Notes under the pieces: generated by a model
What the model was told of the DNA's origin: nothing
Databases searched by the model: none
The model's input: only the letters and a program-made list of their open reading frames with translations
Assembly: GCF_027213715.1 (NCBI RefSeq)
Contig: NZ_JAPWGM010000001.1
Location: forward strand, 496,001-560,000
Source: Pedobacter punctiformis
GTDB lineage: Bacteria > Bacteroidota > Bacteroidia > Sphingobacteriales > Sphingobacteriaceae
Reading direction: 5' to 3'
DNA length: 64,000 nucleotides
Made by a program: the position numbers and the translations under genes
Part shown: positions 58,558 to 59,951 of the stretch, one piece after another
How the letters are laid out: every line of letters starts with the position of its first letter
Numbering within the stretch: position 1 is the stretch's first letter

Positions 58558-58680
58558 TTATTACTGATACAAACCGATACGGGATTTGGGCTGAAATATA
58601 ATGAATTATTTACAGTGGATAATAGCGCAGGCATGAAAAAGTTAACAAAAAATTTACACGGCCATTTAGAATAATATTTA

Positions 58681-58712
58681 AAAAGAAAAAGAGCAACCCA
58701 TCCAGATTGCTC
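58681..58712 (-). terminator. Terminator of the tRNA-like RNA unit
   Basis: Read on the minus strand, GAGCAA and TTGCTC (58712-58707 and 58696-58691) form a 6-bp stem with a 10-base loop, followed directly by TTTTTCTTTT. It ends transcription about 30 bases after the 3' end of the second tRNA-like RNA. Confidence 0.82.
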
Positions 58713-58742
58713 GATTAACTAACTTATTATTCATAAAAAATG

Positions 58743-58886
58743 CTGTTGGGGAAGGAGTCGAACCTTCAAGGGGTAGTTAGCTACAGTTCAAAAAATTAAT
58801 TGTGGTCAACCCAATAAACTGCGTTTGTCCCATTATTCCCCACCACCGAGACAAGGAGGCGTGTCTGCCAATTTCACCACCCAACA
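58743..58886 (-). ncRNA. Class II tRNA-like RNA with 75-nt variable region (distal copy)
   Basis: A 144-nt tRNA-like fold. The acceptor TGTTGGG (58886-58880) pairs with CCCAACA (58750-58744), and the discriminator is G (58743) without encoded CCA. The D arm GTGAAATTGGCAGACAC has GG and resembles tRNA-Leu. The T arm GAAGG TTCGACT CCTTC is canonical. The anticodon arm CCTCC TTGTCTC GGTGG would give anticodon GTC (58850-58852, Asp-type), but has T at position 37 and a T-T mismatch at 29-41. The variable region starts with GGGG, ends with CCCC, and contains a TAG-CTAA-CTA hairpin and a 33-nt insertion relative to the proximal copy. Compare 58963-59070. Confidence 0.8.
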
Positions 58887-58962
58887 TTATATAGTTTTTA
58901 GTGTTAAGTCGAGCCTTAATCTCTATTAAAGACTAAGGGCTTCTGACTCTGAACTAAAACAG

Positions 58963-59070
58963 CTGTAGGGGAAGGAATCGAACCTTCAAGGAGTGGTTAG
59001 CCATTGCTGGTTTTCCATATTCTCCGCCACCGAGACAAGGAGGTGTGTCTGCCTGTTTCACCACCCTACA
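58963..59070 (-). ncRNA. Class II tRNA-like RNA with 39-nt variable region (proximal copy)
   Basis: A 108-nt tRNA-like fold, 76 bases upstream (in transcription) of the 144-nt copy. The acceptor TGTAGGG (59070-59064) pairs with CCCTACA (58970-58964), discriminator G at 58963, no CCA encoded. The D arm GTGAAACAGGCAGACAC and T arm GAAGG TTCGATT CCTTC are canonical. The anticodon arm CCTCCTTGTCTCGGTGG is identical to the other copy over 17 bases, again with GTC (59034-59036), T37 and the T-T mismatch. The variable region has a GGAG/CTCC base stem and a TGG-CTAA-CCA hairpin. Not a group I intron-containing tRNA or tmRNA: no such elements are present. Confidence 0.8.
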
Positions 59071-59120
59071 GTATGTTTAGCATTTAAAAGAACGTTCCTT
59101 TTTGTTAATTGCTTGATACA

Positions 59121-59152
59121 AATGTAAAGGAACAAGCAATATCTTGCAAATA
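59121..59152 (-). promoter_or_regulatory. Promoter of the tRNA-like RNA unit
   Basis: On the minus strand TTTG (59152-59149) and TACATTTG (59128-59121) are 20 bases apart, both perfect. Transcription would start near 59114, about 44 bases before the 5' end of the proximal tRNA-like RNA. It is divergent from the Lrp/AsnC gene at 59224. Confidence 0.75.
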
Positions 59153-59223
59153 TTTTAAACATTTAATTTTATTTTTGTGATATTAATAAATTATTTTAAA
59201 TTTGATTATCAAAATTCAAAAAT

Positions 59224-59700
59224 ATGCTTAAAAAAGACAATTCCAATTTAGAAATTGACAACCTGGACATTGATATATTGAAACAATTAATGCAGGATGC
59301 CACTAAACCTTATACAGAAATTGCAAAAGATTTGATTGTTTCGGGTGGCACTATACATGTAAGAATGAAAAAATTACATGAGATGGGTATTATTAAAGGC
59401 TCACATTTAATCATCGACCCACAGAAGGCGGGTTACGATATCTGTGCTTTTCTGGGTATTTATTTAGAAAAAGGGATTCAGTATAAGGATGCAGTTGCTC
59501 AATTGAGTAAAATTAAAGAAGTAGTAGAATTACATTACACTACCGGGGCATATAGTATGTTTGCCAAAATTATCTGCAGAGATACGAATCACCTGCGTCA
59601 TGTATTGAATGAAGAGATACAGGCTGTTAATGGCATCCAACGTACAGAAACGTTAATCTCGTTAGAAGAAAGTATTAAAAGACAAATAGAATTGGGATAG
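59224..59700 (+). CDS. Lrp/AsnC family transcriptional regulator
   Basis: DNA-binding regulator of 158 residues. A winged helix-turn-helix at about 15-60 (NLDIDILKQLMQDATKPYTEIAKDLIVSGGTIHVRMKKLHEMGII) is followed by the RAM ligand and oligomerisation domain (about 75-150: GYDICAFLGIYLEKG, KEVVELHYTTGAYSMFAKIICRD). Family members respond to amino acids and act as octamers. It is divergent from the tRNA-like RNA unit, with 70 bases between the promoter and its ATG, so it could influence that unit; this is inference. Single gene. Confidence 0.93.
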   Translation: MLKKDNSNLEIDNLDIDILKQLMQDATKPYTEIAKDLIVSGGTIHVRMKKLHEMGIIKGSHLIIDPQKAGYDICAFLGIYLEKGIQYKDAVAQLSKIKEVVELHYTTGAYSMFAKIICRDTNHLRHVLNEEIQAVNGIQRTETLISLEESIKRQIELG

Positions 59701-59790
59701 TGTTTAAGATTAAAGCGGAAATACTAAAGTGAAAATTTAGCCTGGTGTGGTATCTGGTCTTAAATAATTATACTACAGCAGCCATTTAGA

Positions 59791-59848
59791 CCCGATTGCA
59801 ACGGTATCCCCCGATTTTTTCAATCGGGGATTAAGTGCAAAGCGGGAA
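59791..59848. repeat. Dispersed hairpin repeat, copy 2
   Basis: GATTGCAACGGTATC (59794-59808) is followed by a CCCCGATT/AATCGGGG hairpin (59809-59829) and a GCAAAGCGGGAAG tail. The same three blocks occur at 15235-15290 with changed but still paired stem bases. Confidence 0.6.
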
Positions 59849-59951
59849 GAAATTTTAATCATTGCTCTATCTCTGCTCTCCAAATCCAGAATAACATGCT
59901 TAGGCTCCAATCAGATTGCCCCAGTTACGCAAAAAGAGTGAAGACAGAAAC

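Follow-up and report, generated by a model that had tools for sequence, protein, structure and literature searches.

Tandem tRNA-shaped RNAs with aspartate identity elements and an Asn-type acceptor end in Bacteroidia and their phages: a candidate non-decoding adaptor linked to an AsnC-type regulator

A tandem pair of tRNA-like genes opposite an AsnC-type regulator

The window is the whole stretch of 64,000 nucleotides of Pedobacter punctiformis DNA that was analysed, and all positions refer to it. Two tRNA-like units lie head to tail on its minus strand, divergent from a gene for an AsnC-type regulator. The following features were assigned.

58691..58712, minus strand: predicted intrinsic terminator, GAGCAA..TTGCTC then a T-run
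58743..58886, minus strand: tRNA-like unit 2 (144 nt), core as in unit 1, longer variable region containing the GGGTTGACCAC motif
58963..59070, minus strand: tRNA-like unit 1 (108 nt), acceptor stem TGTAGGG/CCCTACA, G73; anticodon loop TTGTCTC with GTC at 34-36 and C38; variable region with a tetraloop hairpin
59083..59093, minus strand: boxA-like motif GTTCTTTTAAA in the predicted leader, by eye
59119..59150, minus strand: predicted Bacteroidetes-type promoter, TTTG (59150-59147), 20 nt, TACATTTG (59126-59119), by eye
59224..59700, plus strand: divergent AsnC-type regulator, 158 aa, best model NF008384 AsnC

The preliminary description had placed two units of 108 and 144 nt here, and both were confirmed, together with their tRNA frame of acceptor stem, 3-bp D stem, anticodon arm, long variable region and T arm, the G73 and the lack of an encoded CCA. 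The spaced pair TTTG-N20-TACATTTG is taken to be a promoter of the Bacteroidetes type from its fit to the consensus for that group. The motif lies 5' of the element at 150 of the 168 AsnC-linked loci, and at 2 of 168 when each sequence was shuffled once. The leader motif GTTCTTTTAAA is presumably boxA-like. One intrinsic terminator was found in the region, against a mean of 0.5 (sd 0.8) in shuffles. With a promoter before them and a terminator after, units 1 and 2 make up one small predicted transcription unit. A Flavo-1 RNA (RF01705, 53.3 bits) lies just 3' of the AsnC gene, at 59784-59853 on the plus strand.

The tRNA fold is supported by comparison

ARAGORN reported a tRNA-Ser as the only tRNA in the window and did not detect either unit. 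No tRNA match (RF00005) was returned by Rfam over 58600-59250 even at E<=10, and no Rfam 15 family reached its gathering score for units 1 and 2; the first reading of the locus had likewise known of no described family with this combination. A literature search, drawing mostly on sources other than subscription papers, gave among the matches listed no title or abstract opening that describes such an RNA. The folding energy of the single sequences was ordinary (z -0.58 and -0.16 for the two units) and their minimum-energy folds do not yield a cloverleaf, so that the evidence for the fold is comparative. At 15 of the 25 pairs of the alignment both partners have changed, with 97% of cells paired, a level reached in 0 of 500 shuffles, and the paired changes fall in the acceptor, D, anticodon, variable and T stems. 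A cloverleaf with T arm, U8, A14 and a 7-bp acceptor stem was found throughout, with the exception of element L246, which has G8 and weakened stems. Chance or a pseudogene as the origin of the units was ruled out by the covariation together with the distribution described below. The family and its fold are secure by these comparative measures.

Two details of the original reading were revised. The T-T (U-U) mismatch noticed in the anticodon stem is real, opposing positions 29 and 41, and is a lineage trait, not a general one, since the anticodon stem of distant relatives varies, covaries and is mostly paired (CCCTC/GGGGG, CCAGC/GCTGG, CCGCC/GGCGG, CCCGC/GCGGG and others). The variable regions described as giant are indeed far above class II size, and are now read as a structured arm. 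An anti-Shine-Dalgarno role for CACCTCCTT in unit 1, a sequence equal to the 16S 3' end, was considered and rejected: distant members alter CACCTCCTT and the stem stays paired. One further element, L075:4825-4994, appears to be a fusion of units 1 and 2, as if by recombination inside the tandem pair.

Distribution in Bacteroidia and in phages

A 27-nt core of the element occurs twice in the genome, both times at the 58743-59070 locus. Allowing up to three mismatches, it was found in 195 of 301 genomes of the host's own family, apparently Sphingobacteriaceae, and in 15 of its 25 genera; a reversed-pattern control gave 0 in every genome among the matches listed. An exact core scan of GTDB species returned at least 119 stretches, 80 of which were named and belong to Pedobacter, Arcticibacter, Solitalea and other Sphingobacteriaceae or Sphingobacteriales. 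The first covariance model (R1) was built from an alignment, A1, of 53 sequences taken from 138 distinct short elements, the degenerate-looking L025:895-1006 having been left out of 54 chosen. Unit 1 scored 124.1 bits (E 3e-30) against R1, its own sequence being part of that alignment, and unit 2 scored 99.8 bits (E 1.3e-23) against the covariance model. Searching with R1 brought in long members from other families of the class. A second covariance model at E<=1e-11 matched 46 of 247 class genomes; removal of G459, whose match is an ordinary tRNA-Leu, and of G382, which has a short relative, left 44 bearers, 38 of them outside the own family. Homologues, the absence of which had been named in the preliminary description as evidence against a real family, were thus found. 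Many genomes hold several copies. The plasmid collection contained no similar DNA. A tRNA-shaped gene that ARAGORN and Rfam missed in the window is present in hundreds of genomes. Expanded D loops were seen in the distant elements L236, L245, L247 and L250.

The element is also carried by viruses. A pattern for the distant anticodon arm hit 35 IMG/VR contigs of up to 326 kb, all of which carry the element (L334-L368): 34 are full, comprising 27 distinct sequences, and one is cut off. U1-A72 is present in 34 of 34 full copies; as the search pattern fixed the loop, only this acceptor-end conservation counts as independent. The viral labels are those of IMG/VR, and contigs that lack tRNA arrays may in some cases be host DNA. 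Plain DNA similarity separately led to a 636-kb phage record, whose element (L369:6004-6146) has a different anticodon stem, TCTCC/GGAGA, with the same loop, CTGTCTC. The own-family core pattern had no exact match in viral contigs. Phage carriage suggests a role during infection. Several viral elements have an expanded D loop. The viral tRNA arrays also contain odd long tRNA-shaped genes (L362:5065-5185, L364:7479-7599 and L340:7683-7830) with the acceptor stem AGTCAGG/CCTGACT, A73 and no obvious anticodon arm.

Aspartate identity elements and an amidation determinant on one RNA

Conserved positions were read from an alignment of 62 elements, to which 37 distant loci contributed 43 and 13 chosen own-family loci 19. 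U1, A72 and G73 are each present in 62 of 62, and G2-C71 is invariant. In the anticodon loop, G34 was found in 59 of 61, U35 and C36 in 61 of 61 each and C38 in 61 of 62, counts that lean toward GTC because R1 was built from GTC-bearing sequences, so that this conservation is partly selected. The aligned members with exceptional loops are L226 (G34 lost), L246 (G34 and C38 lost) and L249, from genome G441, in which most of the anticodon loop is missing. G10 is less widespread (22/62) and is present in the window units.

According to the accessible text of PMC9976931, G73, G34, U35, C36 and C38 are the strong determinants of aspartate identity, all of which are present in both window units. The same text gives U1-A72 as the determinant for amidation of Asp-tRNA, with G1-C72 and U20a as antideterminants. 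No U20a was seen by eye in the family, its D loop reading C/T then A after G18G19. The element thus carries the AspRS and the GatCAB (U1-A72) identity sets together. The host tRNA-Asp has G1-C72, A37 and the loop CTGTCAC; the host tRNA-Asn has U1-A72. Two features speak against the family as an AspRS substrate: G10 is present in the minority of elements given above, and G1-C72, which the accessible part of PMC9976931 describes as strictly conserved in bacterial tRNA-Asp and as helping to place the 3' end on the E. coli enzyme, is absent, an absence that may lower charging.

The doubt that the preliminary description cast on normal decoding was borne out. Of 61 elements, 55 have a pyrimidine at position 37 and 6 a purine, both window units having T37; at position 33, 48 of 61 have T, as do the window units, 10 have G and 3 have C. 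These 55 pyrimidines and 13 departures from U33 argue against a decoding tRNA, whether an extra tRNA-Asp or one that in certain conditions inserts asparagine at GAC/GAU codons. The variable regions, much longer than in class II tRNAs, tell against it as well, as does the ordinary tRNA-Asp found in the host genome and in six of the 35 viral stretches. In favour of the decoding reading, the viral copies often lie among ordinary tRNA genes, as if part of a translation set: ARAGORN found other tRNA genes in 23 of 35 stretches, with a maximum of 25 in one. Taken together, we judge decoding very improbable.

Linkage to AsnC

The regulator encoded at 59224..59700 matches NF008384 AsnC with E 3e-53 and 179.8 bits, under the curated cut-off of 227. 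Its best relative of solved structure is E. coli AsnC (PDB 2cg4, E 1.6e-37), the next best reaching 1.6e-22. An AsnC-type gene lies divergently upstream of the element at 168 of 209 loci, namely 145 of 172 own-family loci and 23 of 37 others; this count includes repeated places, leaves aside three ordinary tRNAs, and has among its misses stretches that end near the element. With repeated places merged, the own-family figure is 120 of 142. All 37 regulators scanned match NF008384; each also matches several further models of the Lrp type, with poorer best E-values. The regulator probably senses asparagine, a ligand suggested by its relationship to AsnC. No other neighbour recurs widely among the 209 loci. 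A 570-aa protein, whose group is found upstream in six loci, was considered as a possible AspRS and rejected, as it is secreted and has a sorting domain. None of 16 asnA or asnB loci in 15 genomes, 14 of these genomes being counted as non-bearers, had an AsnC gene nearby.

Gene content of bearers and non-bearers

GatB and AsnRS were scored in 68 genomes and AsnA/AsnB in 80, from several hundred handled. Bearers and non-bearers were hand-chosen from the core and covariance scans, favouring relatives of bearers. GatB, from which alone the presence of GatCAB was judged, exceeded its cut-off in 36 of 36 bearers tested, host genome included, compared to 14 of 32 non-bearers (Fisher p 4e-8, overstated as the genomes are not independent and relatedness was not corrected for). 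G383 and G450, which have weak GatB-like matches under the cut-off, were counted as lacking GatB. In four families (f1, f2, f16 and f36) the tested bearers have GatB and the tested non-bearers lack it, with the one exception of G075; in five others (f3, f24, f44, f49 and f50) the non-bearers keep GatB.

The same RNA could in principle mimic Asp-tRNA, binding or titrating AspRS, or serve as a plain aspartate carrier, in either case never being amidated, and the retention of all strong AspRS determinants in nearly all members would fit either. Both leave unexplained the U1-A72 pair, invariant in the aligned and the full viral elements, and the GatB found in every bearer tested, which makes this explanation quite improbable.

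Canonical AsnB was over its cut-off in 0 of 44 bearers vs 13 of 36 non-bearers, and AsnA was detected in 1 of 44 vs 4 of 36. One or the other was present in 1 of 44 vs 15 of 36 (Fisher p 9e-6, with the same overstatement). These gene absences are soft, as the scans over 40 genomes scored the best candidates per genome under strict filters. Counting G382 as a bearer instead changes the figures to 37/37 vs 13/31 for GatB and 2/45 vs 14/35 for AsnA/AsnB. AsnRS is present in 67 of 68 genomes, which indicates a need for free asparagine.

Most bearers have an AsnB-like paralogue: 33 of 36 exceed the TIGR01536 cut-off and 34 of 36 match at E<=1e-20; the paralogue of the host genome reaches 279 bits vs the canonical AsnB cut-off of 499. 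If this paralogue makes asparagine, the element RNA would not be essential. Thirteen genomes with GatB lack both the element and a canonical synthetase, and seven others lack all three. The two bearers without an AsnB-like match at E<=1e-20 are G326 and G481. In G326 the GTC loops are intact, in good agreement with the proposed asparagine role. G481 does not fit: it has GatB and lacks AsnA, AsnB and the AsnB-like paralogue, and its sole detected element (L246:4936-5042) has the loop CGTTCTA with G34 and C38 lost, so that either a further copy escaped detection or the proposed role fails in this genome. The sole bearer with AsnA, G508, has an element (L226:4072-4186) with intact stems and the loop CTCTCTC, in which G34 is lost. 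Its congener G382, which also has AsnA, contains only a 77-nt relative (L370:539-614) with U1-A72 and G73, no long arm, A34 and the loop CTATCTC, called tRNA-Asp (atc) by ARAGORN. G34 is therefore absent in both genomes seen of this AsnA-bearing genus, a finding that speaks for the proposed role.

Discrimination by AspRS was also considered. At two AspRS sites of putative diagnostic value for discrimination, 40 sequences were readable, the G333 AspRS not being counted among them. The first, a His in the Asp/Asn enzyme 4wj3, was never His (Leu, Lys, Phe, Gln, Met or Ile), and the second was Lys in 39 of 40. The accessible parts of PMC4206432 and PMC6523644 make no mention of these sites. What is accessible of PMC4206432 lists 18 genera with AsnRS, GlnRS and GatCAB and without an asparagine synthetase, Bacteroidetes being among the clades, and suggests a non-discriminating AspRS for Bacteroidetes that have AsnRS and GatCAB and lack a canonical synthetase.

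Proposed role and related systems

Three separate lines, the identity elements, the AsnC linkage and the gene content, support a connection with asparagine. From these we infer a non-decoding adaptor tRNA that would be charged by AspRS, amidated by GatCAB and used to supply asparagine under AsnC control, a reading that we regard as somewhat probable. The gene pair would be transcribed from its own promoter, divergently from the regulator gene, and the RNA would fold into an L shape, its tRNA body of class II (Leu-like) and its variable arm large and structured. AspRS would load aspartate by way of G34 U35 C36, C38 and G73, and GatCAB, which accepts U1-A72 tRNAs, would turn the bound aspartate into asparagine. 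Given pyrimidine 37 and the oversized arm, we propose that the amidated product is not used for decoding; the released asparagine would feed AsnRS and other needs, and the RNA would stand in for asparagine synthetase. A discriminating AspRS, if that is what these genomes encode, cannot load tRNA-Asn, which would leave GatCAB without an aspartyl substrate. The problem would be solved by one RNA that combines the anticodon of tRNA-Asp with an acceptor end of the Asn type.

The aminoacyl carrier, one of three roles guessed at the outset, is thus favoured by the identity elements, the neighbour and the co-occurrence, and the recoding tRNA is disfavoured. The third, a regulator, keeps some probability. 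The RNA might be charged and amidated with its Asn form serving as donor for another reaction, or might sense through its charging state the supply of aspartate, asparagine or glutamine and regulate genes via the variable arm. That arm has conserved motifs of its own, needless for a mere carrier: a GGGTTGACCAC-like sequence in 19 of 43 distant and 33 of 34 full viral elements, and, by eye, TAA opposite GA-AA. The several copies per genome in many cases point the same way. As the AsnC-type gene is the sole widespread neighbour, and no gene for an enzyme or target is commonly co-transcribed with the element, we consider a donor or sensor rather unlikely.

The adaptor reading can be put more boldly. 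In this form, for which we put the chances at about even, a non-coding tRNA class would act as an RNA cofactor in making a free amino acid, linking a discriminating AspRS to GatCAB through its Asp anticodon and Asn-type first base pair and replacing asparagine synthetase in many lineages of Bacteroidia, controlled by AsnC and also carried on large phages beside tRNA genes. If true, it would explain the asparagine supply of Bacteroidetes that have AsnRS and GatCAB and no canonical synthetase, and would add a tRNA with a metabolic, non-decoding job.

Non-proteinogenic tRNAs are known, such as the staphylococcal tRNA-Gly for peptidoglycan, which is aminoacylated and has features that keep it off the ribosome. 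The element resembles it in tRNA fold, in aminoacylation (predicted here) and in ribosome avoidance, and differs in the predicted amino acid, the large variable arm and the AsnC linkage. Another related system is tRNA-dependent asparagine formation on tRNA-Asn by a non-discriminating AspRS and GatCAB (Bdellovibrio, Staphylococcus, Deinococcus), with the same predicted amidotransferase and the same U1-A72 rule. The accessible text of PMC4206432 proposes that route for bacteria that have AsnRS and lack AsnA/AsnB. Its carrier is the decoding tRNA-Asn (GUU), whereas the element is a separate RNA with an Asp anticodon, so that a discriminating AspRS could serve.

Among ordinary tRNAs, the host tRNA-Asp shares with the element the loop C/T-T-GTC-N-C, G73 and G2-C71, and differs in G1-C72, A37 and its short variable loop. 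The D arm and body are similar, by eye, to those of the class II tRNA-Leu. The rule for tRNA-Leu is A73; in contrast, the element has G73, an Asp anticodon, U1-A72 and a variable region of ~37 to >100 nt. Two weak model matches, L340:9755-9836 and the one in G459, were identified as tRNA-Leu by ARAGORN.
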